From assembly GCA_000310025.1 (NCBI GenBank), contig FN648370.1:85903-149902 (forward strand): DNA of 64,000 nt, written 5' to 3'. Made by a program: the position numbers and the translations under genes. Origin of the DNA: Ectocarpus siliculosus (taxonomy: Eukaryota > Sar > Phaeophyceae > Ectocarpales > Ectocarpaceae). The notes below the pieces were generated by a model. It was not told where the DNA came from. It searched no databases and worked only from the letters and a program-made list of their open reading frames with translations. Shown in pieces: positions 40,971 to 63,557 of the stretch (within the stretch, counting starts at the first letter, position 1; every line of letters begins with the position of its first letter).

Positions 40971-43900
40971 ATGGCGAGACAGGCTTTAGTCGCAATACTT
41001 GCGAGTGTACTGACGGCCTTATGCTGCTCCCAGGCGTTTGCGTTCGTGGGAACGGGCATCAACCTCGTGAGTAAACACAAGCCTGATACGGGACGGCTCT
41101 TGTGACATGTAGACAGAGAGAATGGCAGGTGTCATGACATGTACGAAGCTGTACTATTCACAGCAGTAGCATGAAACCAGCTCGATGCCAGGCATACGTG
41201 GACTAGTCGATGCGAGCAAAGTGAAATCTAGCTTTTTTGCATGCACCATGTCGCATTTGACTGCTGACTCTACGCTGTGAACAAATCGGCGACATACTCC
41301 AGTACGAAGGCACGGCAGCGTTGCTTGTGTGCACGTGTGACAAGGACCATGAACCAGCTGTAGGCTGCTGTGGGCTATATGCAGGGGGATTCGTTGATAA
41401 AATACCCGAATGTACATACTTCTCTCCCATGTTGCGCCCATCTTGATCAAGAACGCTTGAGTTTAACGTTGTCATCCGTCGATTGATAGCCGACGGTGGA
41501 TATGAGCAAGTACCGCCGTTAACCTGACAGTCTCGTGAGTTCCTACCGACAGTGAAAGCTGGAATGCTGGAATAATAGTACAGCCCTTGTGAACGTTCCG
41601 AAACACAGGTTGCGCTTTTTTAATCAGGTTATAATGTTGATGCAATGCATGGGACATGTAGGAATGACTCCTGATCTGCATGCAGAGTGCGTTCAGGTTC
41701 AGTGCAATCAATGCGTACATACGTAGGAAGTCTACATACTCTACCAAGGACACGAGTTGTGGATTATCCATCTTCTTTTGCATACCAGGTTTGTTATTAC
41801 GAAGTACACCACTTCGGTCCTCACGGTATGTTGCACGCACGCTCTTTGTAGGAGAGACTGACGGGTGTAACAGTCCATATGTACCTTCTTTAAACCCGCC
41901 GCCGTTCTTACTGCAGCCTTCGTATGGCACACAGCCGAGGCGCCCCTGACGAATGAACTGCTGCAGGACGTAATCTCTCTTTCCTCTTGTTTGCCGTGAC
42001 GGCACTTGGTTGCCCAAAGAAATGGGGACGAGGAGAGTCCTTGTGATACGTGTAGTTTCGTGTGCGAATGTTCCTGGAAATTGTTTGGAACATTTCCTGG
42101 ACCGGTCGGCATAATACAACAGTATCTCCGTGACCGTTTATTCTTCCCCTATAGTGTGGGATAAGACAGTGGCTTCACCTCCCGCCGCTGGTGAAGTCAC
42201 CCTTTCCCTGAGCTTTATTGTAGAATCGATTTTCGCGAAAGTCCCCTGCACTGGGGCACCATTGTCCTGCGTAGTTGCCGCATTTCGTCCGCATGTCCGC
42301 ATCCTGGACAGCATGTCTCGAACCAGCTGAATGCATGACGTCTGTGTATTATACTGCTTTTGTAGTCGAAGTGGGGAACGACAAACAGGTTAACATGTAC
42401 TGGAATTTTACACGCTCTTGTTTGCTCAGGGTACAGACACACAGGCACCAGTGCTTTGACGCCTGGTATATCCCACGGTGAAGTTGGTACTGGAACATCA
42501 CGTATTCTTATATACCTAACTATGTTGGAATCGCACTTTGTTCGGGTCTGCTCTAGACTATACAGGTCAATGCTCATATCATGACCTTTAAACAAACAAC
42601 CGTTCGTCCTTCAATCTCAGCACTCTACGCGATGGAACAGCTGTGGCACGAGGGGCATGCGCATGGAGGTGGAGGAGCTTGAACAACTCAATCCAGCCAT
42701 CAAGGGCAAAAAGCTGGAGATCGTCGATGAGGTTCGAAACATGTACAAATACCTGTTGGAACATATTTCGTAGGTTACCGCTGCGTCGATATGACAGGGA
42801 GACTCAAACGTGCGCTGGGCAACCTCTCAAGCCGTGGATTCGAACATGCAAACGATGACGTGTACTATTGTTTTATTGTTGATTTATTGGAGCCCATACG
42901 TGCGTTGTGTCGCACCATAGCAGAGTTGGACGCCTGGTCAATATTTCAAGAATGTCAAGCTGGAGCCCTGCTTCACCCAAGCATCGCCCAACTCCAGGGA
43001 AAAACTGCCCAACATGATCGTTTCCAGTGAGAAAACAACGACACCTGTGGAAAATGACATTTTATCGTCCTTCCCGGTTTGATATGGCCACAGAGGTGAT
43101 TCTATTCTTTGACAGCGATACTGCAAATTGAGTTCTGTGTTTCTGCGGCTTTGCTCACAGCGATCTGCTTCCAGACCTTTTCGCCCACTAGTAACGAGGG
43201 CGGTGAATATCAGTACGTGTAAACTGGTCGGGGAATTTGGCACATTGACTGTTCGTTTAGTTTTGGTGTTTGAACGAAACGGAGCTTTTCTGTTGTGATC
43301 AGAGTTTCCGGTCATGTAGTAGAGCTGTGGGTTCGTCCTGAATAGACTGTTCTGGGTGCCAGATCTACACCTTGTCTGCCGCATCAGCCGGGGTTACACA
43401 CGAGAAAGAAGTTACATGCAAACATTGCTTTTTGTTTACTCTGTCTTCCCGCATGCGGTGGTTGCGTTTACCATTGAACGCGATAAGGGTTTAGCATTTC
43501 CTTCCCTCGTTGTGTGGTTGCTCTCGACTTTGCGTTTTCCACGCCTAACTTGCGATTTCAGTTCCAGGGAGGTTAGAAACTGCATCCAGAGCATCAAAAG
43601 GTTTCTAAACTTCATGGGCAACCAGGTGCTAGCTCGGTAAAAAGCTCGATATGGAGCAATTTAGGAGTCTGTCGTTTGGTTATGGTTTTCGCGACCATTG
43701 CCCGCCTCTCTTTCGCCGAGGACCAAGCGTAACGACTCGTACTGTACACGGGCACCACTCAAGTTCAGAGTCCTGGTCCTCTGCTGTGTTGAGTTTTCGA
43801 TGCGATCGATACTTTTACCATCAGTCCTGGCTCGCCTCAAATTTGCCCTATCGTTGCTCTCACATACACACAGATGTCTCCGCTCAGTCTTATATTCCTC

Positions 43901-51949: not shown

Positions 51950-53878
51950 GCTCGACTCGTCGGACAGAAAGAGAAAGATATTACAAATGAATGGATTTGT
52001 TTGTGTGGCAAGATTGGGTCTTTTGGTTTGCTGCTGTGGTGAAGATCCGGGCCGGTACGGCAGAACTGTCAAAGATTCAAAATCTTTTCTCAGGGGGCGC
52101 AGTATTTCCATCTTGTTGATCGTGTCGTGTGTCTTGCCTTTCCTGTCAACCCTCCGTGTACCCCCTTTGTTGAACGTGTGTGTGTGCAGAGTGGAGTGGG
52201 CGAGCGTGTCGTGCGAGGTGTGTGTGTACCGCGTCAAGAATAAGGTACCAAGAGAGAGGCGCAAGGGGCTTGACAGAGAACGGTAAGCACCGGAGACACT
52301 TTCGAGCGCCAGAAAGCGAGCCTTCTGGCCGTGCCAGACGGTGAGGCTATAGGTACCTTGATTCCTTTAGGAGCCAGAAATGGAAGTCAGAACATTGCTC
52401 CGCGCGCGACGTAGATACCCCACCTGCGTCGTGCGGGTCTGCTGTTTCCAAAAGGCATGGCATCATCCTTCATAGGGTGCGTTAAACCCACCTCTATTGT
52501 CATGAACCCGATACGTGCCGTTATGATGTTTCCACACCCTGCTCATTATGGCTCTACTTCAATTGTTCCCTGGTTTTCGATACATTGCTAATCGACAACA
52601 GCAGCAAAGTGCAAAGTGTTGTGTTGGGCGGATGGGGTATTTACGTATTTACCATCCTTCAAGGAGGAACGTCGTGTGACGTTTGCCATTTTGGCGATGG
52701 GAGGTGACGACATCCTCCGAATCTAGACCAAGATTACGAGAAGGCCCGTAGGCATCAAAACAACAGCATGTGCCTCGACTTGGGACAGCGTTTTCTTTTT
52801 GCTGGGAAAGAGTGATATCTACACAGGCAGGCAGGGATCTACAGCAGTACACACTACCTGGTACATATAATAGATGCAACTATTAATAGTTCAGCACGAC
52901 AGAGTTTGCACTTGTACTGCTTGAAGGATATTCCTTCCTCGCAGTAGTACTGACGTGCAAGTTGTCCTCACTTCTTTTCGCTTTTCGCTGCCTGCCCGTC
53001 GCCGCCTTTATCAGAAGTGTCATGCAATTTTGTTTCAATTGTTTTTGAGCTACACCTCAAAAGTACCGTAGCTTTCGGCGAGCTGGGCTTGACTACTGCT
53101 GTAGGTTCAGGCGAGCAACTGGAAAAGGGCAGTCGGATGATTTTCACGCTTTGACAAACGAGAAATCAGTTCATTTTTTTTCCAAGTAAATAGTATGCAA
53201 TCGTGGCCACAAGGTTTTTCGGTGCGCCCCGAACGACTTTTTGCTGAGCGAGCCGCAGAGCAAGGAATATTAGGATGCGCTGCGGGGTGTGCGGGTACAG
53301 CTACCTCAGGCTTGAATTCCTCGTCCGTGCGACATGCCGGAGATGTTTGCCCGTGGGCGGGTGGGCGGGTGCGGGGGCTTTTTCATGGTGCGGTTTGTTT
53401 GTCCGGCTTTCGACGGAACTGCTGTGTTTTCGCAAGGCGCTTTCAGGACAATCTTCGTCGAAAGTGGTTGGTACCCATGACACCTGCTAGAGTGGTCCAA
53501 AACCGTCAACGTTGGGTAATGCTCAATACTCCGAATATACATACATGTAGCAGTTTGCGAGGAGCGATCTCATGGACCTCGCCTTCGCCGTGCTATGCAT
53601 ATGAGTGAAACTATGCATATGTACTTGTAGCACCACGCGCCTGCACCGTTGTTTCATCCTGCCGCAAAGAAACAAAGGGTACCCGAATGTAGCTCATGAC
53701 CTCTTGCGTGAGTATGACGGGAAAGTAGAAAATGCCCGTTTGGTGACATCATACTTCGGATCTGCCACGCAAAACGCCCAAAACCCGCGACAGAGCCACG
53801 ATTCGACTAAAGACTGTCCCCTAAATGGCCAGGAACCCTCTTTGAATGCGTTCTTGCAACACGCAGGATCGAGACGCG
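51950..53878. promoter_or_regulatory. Divergent intergenic region between the CCDC13-like and kinase genes
   Basis: 1.9 kb between divergent start codons. Contents noted: a 7-bp perfect hairpin (GCCAGAA at 52308-52314 with TTCTGGC at 52323-52329), and two copies of CTATGCATATG. Open frames at 53195-53608 on both strands have no recognisable domain. The minus-strand frame remains open upstream of the CCDC13-like ATG to about 52264, so an upstream start is possible. Confidence 0.4.
53593..53621. promoter_or_regulatory. Twin CTATGCATATG motifs upstream of the kinase gene
   Basis: Two identical 11-bp copies at 53593-53603 and 53611-53621, 18 bp apart start to start, each containing the palindromes ATGCAT and CATATG. 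They lie about 260 bp upstream of the predicted kinase ATG. The spacing is near two helical turns. A binding-site role is inference only. Confidence 0.3.
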
Positions 53879-56800
53879 ATGTTTTGGCTCTGCGGAGGAG
53901 GCAGCAGAAAGCATAGAACAAGGAAGGATTTCGTCTCGGCAGTAGCAGGTTTGTTTGATGTGTCACCCGCTTTCTGCTTCATTCATACGCGCACACACAC
54001 ATTCGTGCCATCGGAAACGTTGAATCATATGTATTCCCATTTTCTTTTGACTACCGTAGTAGTGCTTTGTGATGGCACCTATCGGGGTTTCGTACCCATC
54101 TAAGTCATGGCACGGATATCCTGTAGATGAGCAAGACCGGTATTTGGTATTGCCGCACCCTGGTGCGATTGCACCGATAGGACCCCGCTTCGGGATTGTC
54201 GTTAAAGACGCACTTCGAGTGTGAGTTGCGTGCTACCGTGGAGTGGCTCCGGCTGCTTTTCAAGCTACCTCCGTACCTCCGACTACAATACCGTTTGATA
54301 TGCAGGCGTTGCCCAATGCGCCCCAACATGTTCTGTCAGGTTATGAGGGGATCGTCGAAGGCAGTAGCATTAGCCGCAGTCCCAGCGCTACCCACGGTGG
54401 GCGTAGGCAGGACGACAGGACTGCTACCATCGAGGATAGAGATGGGGATCCGGGGCAACATCTGGCGCCCCGATTGTCCGAGACGCCCCCGCCGTATCGC
54501 GAAGCTTTAGCGGTGAGTAATCATTGGCTTATGTCTGTCCGCAGAAGTTGCTCAATCCGAGAGGAGCGCTTCTGTCTTACTTCAACTGCAAGTAAATTAT
54601 CCTGACTTTGTCCGGGGTCCAGCACCAGACGGACAGTCATATAACTTTTCTACATGCAAATGTCATTTTCGGCAGCACCGACTCACAAGCCCTTTTCTTC
54701 TCCTGCTTTGACCTCTAACACTGCCTGCATGTTCAGAGGAACGGGTCCTGCGAGGACCATTCTCAAACACCACGGACGGCCCCGGGGTTGATCCCCAAGA
54801 TCTCTGAGCTGACCAAATCGATGCCCTCGAGTCAGCAGACATCGATGCCGATGCTGGTATCCCCTGAAGGTTCTGAGTGCTTTGAAAGCGTTCGTGACGA
54901 CGACACACTTTCGCAACGGCCAAATTGGATCAACCAGCCATACTCTGAGCACAAACCTAGCGTGCTGGATGCGGAAAAGGCGAAGGTGGATGCGTTCCAC
55001 AGATCTGAACAGGCTGGTTGGGACGACGACCGCTCCGCAAGGCGACGCTGGATGGACGCACCGATGCCTATGGACGCACAGCAATCAGCGCGGTCTAGTT
55101 GGACCAATGAGACCGATTCCGTGGCCGCACAATCTGCTCAACTTGGCTGGATGGAAACCAGATCCGTAGATGCACCCTCTACTCGACCTGGCTGGATCAA
55201 CGAAGAGGGATCGGTGGGCGCACCATCCACGCGACTTGGCTGGAATGACGACACCGGATCCATAAATGCACAGTCGGAACAACCCGGCTGGAGTAACGAC
55301 ATGGCATCGGTAACGGACGACCCAGGGTTCAGGCGCCTTGGTTTGGTACACGATACCGCATCCGTGGGCGCTCAGTCGGTACGACCCGGCTGGATCAATG
55401 AAACCTCATCGAGAATGGACGACACAGAGTCCGTCGGGTTTCATGCTCGGCAATCCAGCTGGTTGGCCAAGCCCGACTCCGTGGTACATGAATCCGAGTT
55501 AGCGCGACCTGATCGGATTCAAGGGGAGGCAAGGTCGCAGTCACCCGGATGGGTCAACGGAAAAAAGGCCTTCCCTACGTCGGGGGGCCGACTGTCAGGG
55601 TGGGATTCTCCGAAGAACACGCAGGAGGATCGTGTGGATGGCCACGAGATGACGATGGGGGGACAGTCCAGTTCTGAAGGCGCTGCAAGGTGAGTCGTAT
55701 GTACGGGGTACCTTGTGTGGTGTCGCTAATCACTTTGGTGTGCAGAAGGTTGAACCGTGGCTATGCTGTCTTTTGTTGCGCCTAGAAGCACGCTAGTATA
55801 CCTTTCCTTTCGTTATGCCTCACATCGACCGGCATTTGTTGTCAGCGCTGTGTCTCGTGGTGATATGCCCTCTTGTTTGTAGTAACCCCACCTCCACCCG
55901 CTTCCGCCCCCTCCCTTTGTACAGGCCCCAGAGCGAGTTGGCGGAATCCCCACCAACAATTGCAAAACGTGTGACTGGAGGGGCAGCGCGTGATATGTCT
56001 GGAAAAGCCCATCACGGTGATGGTGGTAGCGACATGAGCGACGAGGGCGGGCTGCTGGGTCTGATCATGGAAACCAACAGAGAGGAAGCCATCCGTAGGA
56101 GAACAGCGAGGTTGCGTAGCACGGAGCGTGCTCGTCGCGTTTTCTCGTCTTCCCCGCCCGAGCGGACCTCCAAAGAGATGGGAGACTCGCCGAGGCAGCA
56201 AGCCCCTCGACAGCCAACTGCTGAGGTGCCAGCGGCTAAGATCACGATCTTACGTTCAAACACTTCGCCCCCGTCTGAAAGTGTGTCTACGCCGACCCAA
56301 AGAGCCGTTAGAGCAAAGCGATCGCTTACTCCTACTGCGCGATCGAATTTTGGCGAAGGTGTTGCAACTTCGAGCCCGCCCGCAAGGCGAGACATGCCTA
56401 GTTTGAATGGCAATGACAGAGCGCGGGAGTACGGGGGGAGGGGCCGGCGAGACGGGACAAACAAGATCTCTTCAATCCGGCGCAATGCTAGTAGCGACAG
56501 GGCTGATGCGATCGAAGTAGGCGCTAAGGAGGCCAGGCGTTTTTCGTCGGGGGTTTCGCGTGTTTCTTTCGAAGGTCTCCCGCACAGTGATTCTCCGCGG
56601 AAGATAGGCAAGAAGGCGTCTTCCCCCGCACGGGATCCAACGACAAGACCCCCCATTCCGGCGCCGGTGGTGCAACGTGGTTCCGGAGTTGCGGTGTTAC
56701 CAAGGACTGACGGCGGGGTAAGCAGCGAGCGGGAAATGATCAGTGGTTCCACTCCTCGAGGAAAGCCTCCTCTTCCCTCGGAAACGCCCGACAGTGCCGG

Positions 56801-59800
56801 CAGCGAAAATAGGTGAGCAGGTTTTATGTCCATGTTTTCCACCTTCGTTTTCCTGTCCCCATCGCCATACAACTCGTAGCCCCTTGCGGCGATCTTAGCA
56901 AGAATTGTGCATATCACCGTCAAGTCGGCGATGTACTCCCCAGGCATATGTTGCACTCGACTGCTCGTTGTCTGACCATATGTCGCGTTTCTTCTCTGTA
57001 CAATGTACGTTGCCCGAGTCGCTGTCGGTGTCACACTCGCATGCTGACTAATTTCGCCGACGTTCGGCGGATCGATTAACCAGCGCGCTGGGAGGAAAAC
57101 CCGTCGACCCGGAATTCCGGGGCAGCAAGGGGCCACAGTCTTCTCCACGCAAGAAACCGCCGACGATGCCCGAACGCACCTTGAACATGCCGCCCCTGCA
57201 AGTGGTAATAAGTGTCAGTAGCCCTGCGCACAAACCACGCGACACTCGGAAGCGTGGAGGCAGCAAGTCCCGCAAGCCTAAAGAGAGTGCGGACGGCTCC
57301 TCACGCAAGTCGAATAACGACGAAGCCCGTCCACGTAGATCCTCTGAAACGAGCAGCACGAGCAGCTCAGACAGCGCAAATCACGGCAACGGGAACACTC
57401 GACGTCGAGACCGCCTGCGATCGTCAGAGGTGGCCGCGGAGGCAGTAGATTTGGTGCGGGGCAGGACTTCTCTGGATCAGCCTCCAGCTCAGCCAACCCC
57501 GGGGAGGAGGGCCTCATCAACGAGCGCGCCTTCTGCCCCTAAACGAGAGATCAAGATGTGGAACAGCAAGGACCCCGCTGGTGCGGCTGCGGCAGCTTCG
57601 TCTGCTTCGGCTGCTGCTGATGCTGACGGAGCTGCGGAACCCGAGGCGCTTGCACCCGCCCTTCAACTAGCAGTAGGGCACGCGCAAGGAGTGGTTCTGC
57701 CCTTGTCCAAGCAGATATTGCCGACAGGGCGAAGAGTCCGGGGACAGCAGCCTTTCAAGTGAGTGCCCCCTCCTGCATACCGTTTGGTACAGCGTCATGT
57801 ACAGGTGTTGATTGTGGATAACGCCAAGTAGAGGGTTTGTGCAGCTGCTGCCGTGGACGGGTTACAGTACAGTACACAACAATGCTCGTTTTTTGGATAA
57901 CTGCTGTGTAGTACTGGTGACATCTTTCTCTTTCAATGTGCGCCATGCCTTTTTTCCCCTCGACCCCTTGATGAACAAACATGGAGGCTGGGCACGCCGA
58001 GAGAGCGCAAGACGACACGAAACCCTTCGCGAACACGCATGCGAATCAGGTCTGACTTGCCGCCATTGGAGGAGGAAGTAGGCATCCCCACGAGCCCCGT
58101 CGCAACGTAAGTGACAGAGAGAGAGAGAGAGAGAGAGAGAGCTGCAGGCGTGACGACATCGGTTTGACCACCGCTTACCATTTACGCTAGGTTCAAAGTC
58201 TCTTGCGGGTCGGTTCCCTCGAGACCTTGGCAACCCCATGATACAGCCCCTAAGTGCACCAGAATACCCTTTCAGGGGCACGTTCATGGTTTCGGTAGGT
58301 GGAAGATTTTGTTGTCGAGCACTCTCGTGCATGGGCGCGTTCTGGCAGTCCGTGTGCTGCAAAGTGCTGGTGTATACAAGAATTGTTCGTTTTACTTTTT
58401 TGCTGTTGCCGGTGTTGGTTCAGAGGGTGTTTGCATCCATCCCGCTCTCTCCTTTTGTGCATCCACTGATGTTCAGCAGCATCAACGTCCGGTGGCCCGG
58501 CGATTTTTCGGGGTCTGCTCATGCCGACAAGAATCATACTGCGATGGGCAGCGACAAGGACTTGGCCGACAGGTAAAGCTGTCGTGGTTGCTTTTGATGT
58601 TGTTCTGAATATGTCTAGGCTCTACGTGTCTCGAGACGGCTAGGGAAAACACTGGACCAACGATAGTCGAGGGAAGACAACAAATTGTTGGGGCTCACAC
58701 CATTGCGACCGTTTTCTGAAACAGCGAGTAGGCGGTGTGAGGCTTGATGTGCGTCAGAAATCTACAGCACGCTGGTAGATTGGGAAAGTCGGCGCATCTG
58801 GTCACACTAAAGCCGTTGGAGATTACATATTCGCAGACGTGGCTATTTCGTGAGGGTCACCTCGTGTGATTAAACGCGCGCCCTTCCTTTTGAAATGAAT
58901 GTCCTCGGATACAATGTAGGAAGTTTGTCAAGAGAGAGGGGAGGGTGCCATGTTTCATACCGCAACGGAATAGTAACAGCAGAACGCAGTAGTTACCTAT
59001 GCACGGTCTACGAAGGGTGCACTTTTTTACGCTCTGTTCAATGAACAACACTTGACAGGCTGCTTGCGGAAAAGCTCGGAAAAGCTCTGCATCACGGCGC
59101 TCCTATTACATCCCCTGGGACCCTCCCGAATAGCACTGCCAACAGGTATTGAAACGGTTCAAGACACCACAGCGTTGCATGATGCGACAGTGTATAAGGA
59201 GGTCAATGAGAGTCGAGAGTGCTAACGTTTGTCAGATCGGAGTGGATTTTTGCGCCCGCCTAGTACTCGCAGTTGTTACAAGGAGACATGTTAGTCCTTG
59301 TACCTCGAATATTGTAAATCAATGATATGATAGGACATGATGGTGGGGTCCGTTTGTTTCATTTCTATGCAACCGTAGTTGAAATAGTTAGCTACTACAG
59401 TACGTGCAACGCATCACGCAAACCCGCGTTTGGGAGTTGGAGAGCCACAGCGCGTCAGGTATTCAGACAACAGCCAAAACGAGGACGGTCGGAACAGAGG
59501 GACAGACAGACAAGGGGGGGCCGGCGGAAACACAAGCAGGATGCACACAACCAGCCGGAGCTTTGCCCACTCCAATGTATCATTGACATTGACAAGCGCG
59601 ACAAGCGTGTTTGTTTGTGCACCTTCTATACGTAACTTGTGCCTCTTGCTTTTCTGCAGAGACCAGGCGCAAAGAGGAGGATGAGGAGGCAGGGAAGAAA
59701 AACAAAGCAGAAAAGAGCAAGGCAAAGGGAATAGAGGCACAACAATCCAAAAGATAACACACAGAACGCCCTCCCACGGCACGGAAGAATTTGAGTGGTG

Positions 59801-62800
59801 GTGAGGGTTGCTTGGTTTTTCAATCGCACAATGCACAGATGCAACACCTTCAGACATCCAACAACCGGATCTCCTTTATCACACCAGAGTGCACAGACAT
59901 GTTGTGGGTGCGTACTGTTGTGTTGCTTCTGCTCGCTCAGCTTTCAATGGTGACCTGGAACTTTTGTTGTTGTAGAATCACCTAGTATACCAATACCGGT
60001 ATGTTTTTTTTGTTTCAAGCGTCCCTGTCACACTTCGTTTTCAATCAACGGCCTTGACACAGGCTCTCTCGAGGTGACGCTATACACTGTACTTGTGTAG
60101 ACAAAATTGACACTGTCGTCGCGTCGCGTCGCTAGCTAACGCTTCTTGAAGCGGGGTCCGTCCCACAGAATACACATTTTCATATCCATCTAAAAGACCG
60201 CTTACAGCCACTACAGAGGTCGCAAGTCCGTTGTCTTTTTCAGAACCCATTCAAACCTCTTCAAACCTCGATTCGCTCGGGGTTCGTCATGAAATTGCAC
60301 GTATCGAGGGCAAGCGCTTCCCGATTGCCGACGGTTGTATTCGCAGTTCAATCCTACCCCAAAATAATTGGTGCGTTTCTCCTGTTTCCGTTGAATGTCT
60401 GCCTTTTCTGGCGTTGCCACAACAGTCTCCCGCTGGAAGTGGCGGCAGCAAGTGCCACGAAGACACAGAGGGACGCAGAGCACCGCAAGCCTAGTGCTAG
60501 AGCGCCCGACAAGGACGAGGCGGCCAAGAGCTGGCTCAACCGCCGCGCCCAACGCCATTCGGGCAACCTGTAAGTTCACCGCACTTCGCGTAGTCCACCA
60601 CGCTGTTTTTTTGTTCTTCACGTATCACGCATGGCAGCACATGCTGTCATCCGAAGTGAAGCAAGCAACTTCCGTTCTAAGAACCCTGTGTCGGTGGCTG
60701 CTGTCTGTTGCTGCTGTCTGGCCGAGTTGTTGCTGAAGACCCCCACCTCTCCTCACGTAGTGTAGTGTAGCACCCTTCCACATGCTGCTTTGGTTCAATA
60801 ACGATTCCTGTTCGGCAGCCGTACAACGGCATAATTGACAGAATCGTGTTGGTAAACGTATCTAGGTACGCTCACGTAATTTTATCTTACTCTCCCATAC
60901 CATGCATGTCCTGCTAATGTTTCGGTCTTCAGGAGTCGAGATGATTCATTCAGGCGCAGAGGGTCGCAGCGGTTGTCAAGGTCGTCCAGCTGGGATGACC
61001 TCAGCTGTAGCAGCTTTGGCCAACGGGCGATGTTCAGGTGCGCACGATGTGGGGTTGCTTTTACTTGTTGTAGTGGGCATCTGTTTTCACCCGGGAAACA
61101 ATGAGCAGCTCGATTAGGTATAAATTTTGGCTCCCATTATTTTTCCTGAGTGAGATGAGGGGTGTTGACTGCTTCTTATGCATATATTCGCGGTACATCG
61201 GCCTTGGTTGGCCTACACTACAAGCCTGCAAACGAGTGTTCGTGGCTGCAGCACGCGTCTCACTTGACCATGTATGTACTCCGTTGCTCACGACCCTATT
61301 CCCTTTTTTGTGTCCACTTACTCTCCTCTCGGCCTCCTTACTCAACCAGTCCCGGCAGGTTCAACCCTACCGCTGGCGCGCTGAGCTGGGTCGGAAGTGT
61401 GGACGACAGCTGGTGTGACAGCTCTGTACGCAGGTGGGGGGCAAAACTTTGACAAGGACAAGTGATCCCAAACAGTTCGACATGCGCGCACAGGTAGTTC
61501 AAGTCCAACATCGGCGGTGGCAATAGGGTCGGGCTTGCCTTGGTCTACCCACTCTGTAGTTCGATGCATTCCACATTCTGTAAACCTGATTGAGTGTGTG
61601 CCTACACACTGCAGAAGTTGGTCAGTTGGCTTCCGCTCCCACCACGCCGTCGAACCGTGGTCGCTGTTTCCTTCACATTTGAACTTCGTTCGGACCACTA
61701 CTATCCAGCGTTTTAACTTCTACTGCCTAAGGTAGCTTCATTCAAAGCAGAACTTGTTTCGGTCGCCACGAGCTCTTCGTGAACCCAAAGTAAGGACATG
61801 TGTATGATAACCGGAAGACCAGAGGAAGTCCCTCGAATGGCAAAACAGCCCCTAGAGATGAGCAATGAGAGGAAACAGGGAAGGCAACCAATGTACCTCT
61901 TCCCTTGCTCCCTTGCTTTCTGGGCTTTTAGCGCCATGACCGCTGGCACGCGCAACTCATCGACCACCAGTCTCAGCGCAAGAGGACTTTCAGACCGCAA
62001 GCTCGTCACGCCACAGCTTTCCAAGGGCGAAAAGCAAACTGTCGAACGGTATGTACTGGTATGGTACATGGTTGGACTTTATGACAAACACGTTTGCGTC
62101 GTCAACTCTTGAAACGTAGAATAGAACGGTGAAGATCCTCAAGGCTATTCACACGTATGGTATCTCGTATTGACGTTGTGACGAGAGGCCAGTATAGTAG
62201 CAACATTGAAGGCACCAGCATCCGCTCAGGTTTTGATAATGCCCGTGCTTCGTCTCTGTCTAAGGGTTGGAGAAATATATATTTTTCTATCACGATTGGT
62301 CCCGCCAGTCGCCGCTGCACGCTTTGTACTGTAGCTTCAGTGGAAAACCGTGCGCGCGTAGTCGCAAGCGTTTTTTTGTTTTATTGCTAACTCGCGTGGC
62401 TGGTTGGTTGCCCCTGTGGCGCATCCCAGGCTCAAGATCAAGCGATCAGACGTCCACTTCGGTTACCGCCCTCTTGAAGGCAGCGACAGAGTGTACAAAA
62501 TCGAGCTGAACGGGGAGATGCGCGCGGCAAAGGTAAGGGAGGTTGTTCCTCTCTGTCGGTTATGGTTTGATGTCACGGTCGTGGAGCGACCTGCAAGATC
62601 ACATGGAGCAGGAAAGTGGTAGCAGTAGCAGGCTTGATTAAGTTGCAAGCTGCCGCTCTTTCTACTACTTCAAAATCTATGCTCCACGTATTTGCGTAAT
62701 GATGGTCGCTTCTTTGCACACTTCTTCGTTCAATTCAAGTAGTTTATTACCCACTGCTGTGCGTTGCATGAAGACATGGGAACGATGCCCCCCGTGCAGA

Positions 62801-63557
62801 CCCCGAACCGGCGCCGTTCGCGCTCTCGTGGAAGCGACTTGCATCGTATCGCATGTTGCTGCCCTGATCACCGGCGAACACACCTGTATCGCCGTGGTTG
62901 GCTTGCGCACGGCAGGTGTTCGACACCTTGGGAATGAGCAAGGAGGAGATGACGGAGGTACTCGACACTTTCGACGCGGAACTCTTGGCTCTTTCACGCC
63001 TGAGCACCCCCCACATCGTCCAGGTACACACATCCCGCACAGCCTGTTCGAGTGAGATGGCTGTTGGTTGTGCCGGTATACACGAGAAATCGTGGAGGGT
63101 GGCGCATCAATGCATCAATGGAGTGTCGCGAGTTTCGTGGAGAAGCGATACGGCGATAAACGAAGTTTTAGTTTTATTTTTCCGAAAGGGAGACACTTGT
63201 CCTGCCCAAATCCCACTCCCAACGGGGACAGAGCTGCTCAAACGACCCGGTTCGCCCTTCTTGATGCGAAGATGCTACAGGAACGCTGGAGCTGCGTATG
63301 ACACAGAGGGATTCCGAGGTAGCGTGTATACGGCGATCTATGTTGGCAGTATATACCCCGCTCGCTGACTTACGATTACCTTCCCCGCGCTCCTGATTTT
63401 TGGTTGACTTGCACGAACATACCCCGTCCTTGTCGTCTAAGGCGTACGGTGCGTCTGTGTCACCGGCCGAGATTATCATGGTGTCGGAGTTTGTGGAGGG
63501 AGGTGTTCTACGCCGTCTCCTCCACAACCCCCTCAAGCTCAAGGATCTCACGCAGAG
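53879..63557 (+). CDS. Large protein kinase, TKL-like, with tryptophan-repeat disordered N-terminus (3' end outside window)
   Basis: Exons: 53879-53948, 54244-54512, 54737-55689, 55925-56812, 57084-57758, 58050-58106, 58477-58572, 59059-59145, 60426-60569, 60933-61037, 61359-61433 (or from 61350), 61932-62048, 62430-62532, 62916-63023, 63442-63557. One frame, about 1,287 residues so far. The first exon (MFWLCGGGSRK) joins in phase but its GTTTGT donor is weak; an internal start at 54300 is the alternative. Residues about 24-1180 are Ser/Arg/Pro-rich and disordered, with a PPPY motif near 107 (a WW-domain ligand), a tandem tryptophan repeat at 235-371, and an Ala/Ser-rich tract. The kinase domain starts near 1185: VHFGYRPLEGSDRVYK, with few of the usual loop glycines; the AAK lysine is residue 1213; the helix C glutamate is about 1235 (FDAELLALSRL); the hinge reads MVSEFVEGGVLRRLLHN. 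The catalytic loop and DFG lie beyond the window, so activity cannot be judged. The substrate is unknown. Confidence 0.8.
55100..55509 (+). repeat. Protein-coding tandem repeat, about eight 16-residue tryptophan units
   Basis: Within kinase exon 3. Successive units begin with Trp (one has Leu) and follow W-x-N-D/E-x-x-S-V-x-A-x-S-x-R-x-G, for example WINEEGSVGAPSTRLG. Most units are 48 bp; two are longer. Degenerate units extend upstream to about 54925. The DNA copies differ at many positions while the Trp, Ser-Val and Gly positions hold, which suggests conservation at the protein level. Confidence 0.85.
58116..58141 (+). repeat. (GA)n microsatellite next to a splice donor
   Basis: Thirteen GA units begin nine bases after the GTAAGT donor of the small kinase exon at 58050-58106. 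It is purine-rich intronic sequence of a kind that can act as a splicing enhancer, but that is inference. Confidence 0.8.
59459..59734 (+). other. Possible alternative terminal exons in the kinase gene
   Basis: A segment at 59459-59576 continues the frame from the exon ending at 59145 and ends with GTATCA. A second, from 59660, continues in phase 0 with a very basic tail to TAG at 59732-59734. Using them would give a truncated protein of about 1,095 residues without the kinase domain. The main model skips both, because only then does the frame continue into the kinase exons. Confidence 0.3.

Follow-up and report, generated by a model that had tools for sequence, protein, structure and literature searches.

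AGO-hook or GW-repeat proteins (GW182/TNRC6, NRPE1, SPT5L and SPT6L), kinesin W-acidic motifs and TKL pseudokinases are the described systems closest to the locus reported here. In the accessible part of PMC10991848, AGO hooks are characterised as disordered, with variable repeats and conserved Trp residues that lie mostly in GW and WG dipeptides, and are recognised by having three or more motifs with a Wsearch score of 6 or higher. W-acidic motifs carry Asp or Glu flanks, often with Leu or Met at position W-2 (section of PMC5450233 available to us), and a pseudokinase is defined by the loss of at least one of three residues, the beta-3 Lys, the HRD-Asp and the DFG-Asp (PMC4718504, in the portion consulted).

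A stretch of 64,000 nucleotides of the Ectocarpus siliculosus genome, referred to below as the window, carries a predicted gene with features of all these systems. In common with the AGO-hook proteins it has a probably disordered region, many Trp residues in GW and SW dipeptides, multivalent spacing and variable repeats, and an Argonaute is encoded in the same genome; unlike them it lacks WG, follows a longer 16-residue pattern that includes S-V and A-x-S, is fused to a predicted pseudokinase and is known from sequence alone. With the kinesin motifs it shares a Trp linear motif and acidic residues close by, but Asp or Glu stands at W+1 in just 3 of the 17 Trp and at W-1 in none. As in TKL pseudokinases, a PF07714 domain keeps the beta-3 Lys and has lost the HRD-Asp and DFG-Asp, whereas the long N-terminus bears a Trp array that is unmatched elsewhere in the genome (save for a duplicate on contig C458) or in PDB.

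The predicted gene and its kinase-like domain

The eleven exons placed in the window (A-H and K1-K3, Table 1) join through AG acceptors and GT donors into one frame of 1,132 codons with no stops, and all eight introns from exon A to exon K1 are in phase 2. Exon boundaries were picked by eye, and the phase match is less telling for exons E, F, H, K2 and K3, because each of these is open in more than one frame. That the array and the kinase domain form one continuous predicted gene is supported but not proven. Adding the exons beyond the window would bring the predicted product, counted from exon A, to about 1,300 residues. A candidate exon near 59666-59757, which ends in a stop, was rejected on account of an early stop in the phase following exon D.

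The kinase domain matched PF07714 in Pfam (E 1.9e-43) and, as its best match in PDB, the CTR1 kinase (E 1.6e-31); MLKL and PTK7 were also among the 60 PDB matches listed. In the alignment with CTR1, HRD is changed to HRH, DFG to GVG and the catalytic-loop Lys and Asn to Ser, while the beta-3 Lys is kept. Since the HRD-Asp and DFG-Asp are lost, this TKL-like domain is predicted to be a pseudokinase by the criteria of PMC4718504 (in the portion consulted). The sequence-only reading of this DNA had placed the array in a kinase, which holds as far as the array lies in the same frame as the kinase domain, but the residues of that domain suggest that it is catalytically dead. No second copy of the domain was found in the genome, where other kinase exons showed 28-44% identity.

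An AlphaFold model of exon A, computed from a two-row alignment of its two genomic copies, had a mean pLDDT of 39.8, with 30-39 in the array blocks; its single helix (residues 77-90) does not overlap the array. Such low values are weak evidence of disorder, because a two-row alignment itself lowers confidence. The array region is probably disordered, and the earlier description of the N-terminus as disordered is consistent with this model without being proven by it.

Table 1. Features of the locus, in window positions unless another contig or sequence is named
Feature	Position	Strand	Remarks	Basis
Duplicated block	53667..58095	+	Copy at C458:259453-263849 (L012 3654-8050), 92% identity, without kinase exons	
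Possible upstream coding exon	54225..54512	+	Joins exon A in phase 0; 4-base gap in C458	inferred
Low-divergence tract	54703..55631	+	Between window and C458 copies	
Exon A	54737..55689	+	Open, array-bearing	
Wider Trp-rich stretch of exon A	54926..55651	+	12 Trp; outlying degenerate units on both sides of the core	
Core Trp-repeat array	55100..55510	+	Units 1-8 (six fair, two degenerate)	translation, self-match, unit alignment
Exon B	55925..56812	+	Without Trp	
Exon C	57084..57758	+	One Trp (MWNSKD)	
Exon D	58002..58106	+	C458 duplication ends within it (about 58085-58095)	
Exon E	60426..60569	+	Trp motif SWLNRR	
Exon F	60933..61037	+	Trp motif SSSWDDLS	
Exon G	61350..61433	+	Trp motifs LSWVGSVDDSWCDSS	
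Exon H	61932..62048	+	Linker to kinase domain	
Predicted pseudokinase exon K1	62430..62532	+	Gly loop unaligned to CTR1; beta-3 Lys kept	
Predicted pseudokinase exon K2	62916..63023	+		
Predicted pseudokinase exon K3	63442..63557	+		
Kinase domain past the window	L015: 538-658		HRH catalytic loop	
Kinase domain past the window	L015: 2405-2629		GVG replacing DFG	
Kinase domain past the window	L015: 3016-3171		Stop	

The Trp-repeat array and the age of its units

The array units follow the consensus W-x-N-[DE]-T-x-S-V-x-A-x-S-x-[RQ]-[LP]-G. Units 1-6 start at 55100, 55148, 55193, 55241, 55289 and 55343 and are 16, 15, 16, 16, 18 and 16 residues long, whereas the Trp codons of exon A are found at 54926, 55019, 55049, 55100, 55148, 55193, 55241, 55289, 55391, 55460, 55550 and 55601, unit 6 having Leu in the Trp position. 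Unit 7 (55391) contains an insertion, unit 8 (55460) is degenerate, and the units become worse towards both ends. When the eight units were registered by eye, with four residues of unit 5, seven of unit 7 and two of unit 8 omitted to fit 16 columns, Ser7 and Arg/Gln14 were present in all eight, Trp, Asp/Glu4 and Val/Ile8 in seven, and Ser12 and Gly16 in six. Two different codons are used for the invariant Ser7.

The protein sequence matched itself best at a lag of 16 with a score of 104, against a maximum of 53 for any of 56 lags after 500 shuffles of the residues (0/500), and when the array alone was shuffled its observed score of 95 was reached in 0 of 1000 trials (maximum 57). The array is thus confirmed as real, as claimed in the sequence-only reading. 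Of the about eight regular units described there, six are fair, units 7 and 8 are poor, and one of the six, unit 6, is without Trp.

That reading had also recognised no named repeat family, and the searches agree with it. Pfam gave no match to three exon frames at E up to 1; at E up to 10 there was only a sub-threshold DUF4597 match to the array (E 0.95) and none to exon A. A PDB profile search with a six-row alignment of unit pairs (four from the window, two from C458) returned nothing at E up to 10. Viral and prokaryote contigs yielded 4 and 25 pattern stretches, respectively, none of them confirmed, in a search by exact peptide patterns that distant relatives could escape. In the genome of the alga itself (189 Mb, 492 contigs), copies of the array were found in this gene and in one partial duplicate on C458; matches on C26 (E 0.37) and C27 (E 0.90) were rejected as low-complexity or another repeat, and further weak matches, with E about 2, lay on C16 and C232. 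A literature search turned up no published account of this repeat.

Exons A-H together encode 17 Trp in 1,023 residues, the longest Trp-free run being 484 residues. Eight of these Trp form GW and six SW, with no WG; the 14 of 17 preceded by Gly or Ser (background 0.225; binomial P 2.8e-7) and the 15 of 17 followed by Asp, Glu or Asn at +1 to +3 (P 3.6e-5) are enrichments whose P values assume independent Trp, an assumption that tandem copies violate. One of the two Trp without a nearby Asp, Glu or Asn is located in exons E-G and the other in the array. Separate exons close to the pseudokinase domain carry the same class of motif: four of the five Trp outside exon A come after Ser, and three of the four in exons E-G satisfy both rules (Gly or Ser before, Asp, Glu or Asn within three after). 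Steps between Trp are 15-34 residues from 55100 on, and the closest pairs, short of or marginal to a ten-residue spacing, are model residues 95/105 and 970/978.

Pooled over the 15 pairs among units 1-6, to which the calculation was confined, pS was 0.57 and pN 0.32, with pS above pN in 14 pairs, although registration of the units by their amino-acid pattern biases pN downward and favours this outcome. Identities at the three codon positions were 0.80, 0.60 and 0.44 among these units, and 0.73, 0.54 and 0.46 at a fixed 48-base lag (unit 3 to unit 4 plus the start of unit 4 to unit 5; 26 codons). Tandem Repeats Finder, at a minimum score of 50, detected no DNA tandem repeat in the array exon; for this reason, and given the third-position identity of 0.44 among units 1-6, a DNA minisatellite was rejected. 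Because pS exceeds pN between units 1-6, the array appears to be old rather than a fresh minisatellite, and the data point to old units whose similarity has been maintained at the protein level. The conservation at the protein level proposed in the sequence-only reading is therefore borne out between units, under amino-acid registration, but not between the two genomic copies of the array, which differ mainly by nonsynonymous changes. Its suggestion of phosphosites in the unit drew no support from the analysis.

The partial duplicate on contig C458

No kinase match was found on C458. Beside the duplicated block there are smaller pieces, one on its right with 85% identity to window 56280-56532 and an intron piece at its left edge with 72% identity to 54508-54648, and no collinear match was found left of the block. 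At the right end, the alignment to C458 breaks off inside exon D; C458 then runs on into another, incomplete copy of exon B, to which its exon D is apparently fused in frame. Exons A-D of the duplicate comprise 842 stop-free codons, and the three donors and three acceptors checked are intact. Under a random-substitution model, the 110 exonic substitutions would be expected to create 3.8 stops if all were unconstrained and 1.9 if half were, the probability of zero stops being 0.02 and 0.15, respectively. All 6 exonic indels, compared with 2 of the 11 intronic ones, have lengths divisible by three (Fisher P 0.002), a count from which the 4-base gap at the candidate upstream exon is excluded. An antisense open frame of 400 codons (window 56012-57214, minus strand), which runs across exon B and intron 2, is probably no gene, because in C458 it would be disrupted by a 1-base indel within intron 2. 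Further left of the C458 copy, TPR-like exon units were noticed on reading the sequence by eye.

C458 retains each of the 12 exon A Trp. Three nonsynonymous changes fall within units 1-6 (L/P, I/V and D/E), all to residues already seen at those columns, and unit 7 of C458 has altered one Asp, one Ser and one Gly position. Between the copies there are nine nonsynonymous and two synonymous changes in 55019-55603, and six and none in 55100-55459; with this excess, the array as a whole gives no sign of recent purifying selection. The dN/dS ratio between copies was 0.74 for the whole of exon A, about 0.72 for exon B and above 1 for the compared part of exon C.

The array exon is also unusually similar between the copies, with 15 differences in 867 bases at 54737-55603 versus 55 in 879 in exon B (Fisher P 1e-6) and 15 in 177 in the intron left of exon A (54513-54690; P 2e-5). 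Outside this tract the copies are mostly 5-13% different, and the tract edges are sharp. Synonymous changes number 2 at 140 sites in 55019-55603 and 18 at 230 sites in exon B. Since synonymous divergence is low too, gene conversion explains the tract better than protein selection does, and the repeat exon was probably the centre of a recent conversion event.

Possible roles of the array

We lean towards the reading that the array is a multivalent platform of Trp linear motifs on a TKL-type pseudokinase scaffold. A motif of roughly [G/S]-W-x-N-[D/E]-x-x-S-V would be repeated along the N-terminal half of the pseudokinase, which is long and probably disordered; there, an exposed Trp, with a small residue before it and an acidic or amide residue after it, would most likely enter a Trp-accepting pocket of a folded partner. 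The pitch of about 16 residues might allow one chain to fill several pockets or to gather several partners, and the pseudokinase domain may serve for binding or regulation without catalysis. The C458 copy, without the kinase exons, would then supply the motif-bearing part alone. Translation, docking into Trp pockets, the scaffold role and the identity of any partner are what we infer.

Among the alternatives, the one with the best prospects, unlikely as it is, would be that the array is a neutral relic, in which a minisatellite that arose long ago in a disordered exon decays and serves no function. The decay of units at both ends, the Trp lost in unit 6 and the insertion in unit 7 fit such a history, as do the preponderance of nonsynonymous changes between copies in 55019-55603 and the confinement of the array to this gene and its duplicate in the genome, with no relative in the PDB, viral and prokaryote searches; however, pN is below pS between units, the motif class appears again in separate exons E-G, the duplicate has in-frame indels and zero stops, and the changes inside units 1-6 remain within the consensus classes, with every exon A Trp kept in the copy. 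A shade less likely is an Argonaute-hook-like platform, a lineage-specific GW-repeat protein that would tether Argonaute to the pseudokinase scaffold, its GW and SW motifs binding the PIWI Trp pockets of a single Argonaute. The 8 GW and 6 SW dipeptides favour it, as do the Trp steps of 15-34 from 55100, compared with ten or more for TNRC6 (available text of PMC9262622), but WG is absent and the conserved S-V and A-x-S are unexplained by Trp pockets alone. A Piwi family search located one Argonaute locus in the genome (C2:6872705-6877263), the PIWI exons of which match human AGO2 at 2.9e-101. When residues are numbered as in AGO2, by counting chain positions along the alignment, P590, K660, C691, L694, E695 and P700 have their equivalents kept, while the equivalents of R688, F659 and V591 are changed to E, A and T, and we take the positions compared other than C691 and P700 to have Trp-pocket roles as well. 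C691 and P700 are pocket residues according to the same portion of PMC9262622. The pockets are reported to be highly conserved among mAGOs, whereas those of PIWI-clade and fungal Argonautes vary and pocket 2 is less conserved in fungi and plants (PMC12477606, as far as its text was accessible), which also counts against this assignment.

Ectocarpus is reported to have one Argonaute and no GW182 homologue in the part of PMC4513859 available, which favours a hook, and a germline role of its Argonaute is reported in the accessible part of PMC12867755. The more elaborate proposal of a GW-type Argonaute platform in this lineage, which would possess a single Argonaute and lack GW182, where the pseudokinase scaffold would gather several Argonautes, the duplicate would do so without the pseudokinase domain, and the 16-residue motif would have an origin separate from that of the AGO hooks of animals and plants, is somewhat more doubtful again. 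Recruitment of CCR4-NOT through Trp pockets of CNOT9, instead of Argonaute, has a slim chance of being correct. The genome has one strong CNOT9/Rcd1 match, and one study reportedly describes W pockets in CNOT9. GW182 is also stated to recruit CCR4-NOT (PMC10991848, accessible part), but no sequence feature separates this possibility from the Argonaute one. Slimmer still is the chance that these are W-acidic motifs binding TPR domains of the kinesin-light-chain type: acidic residues do follow Trp in GWDDD and SSWDDLS, and TPR-like exons, in the by-eye reading, adjoin the C458 copy, but such adjacency is no evidence of interaction, and the class was rejected because its flanking pattern, [LMIV][DE]W[DE], occurs at 0 of 17 Trp. 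Docking of the motif onto Argonaute or CCR4-NOT, should it occur, could close a gap in Ectocarpus, for which no GW182 homologue has been reported; even otherwise, the favoured platform on a pseudokinase scaffold would present a testable multivalent Trp motif joined to a dead kinase and later duplicated without it.

Elsewhere in the window, dispersed repeats at 64-280 and about 41968-42207 each have many matches in the genome, with about 73-96% identity among the matches listed.
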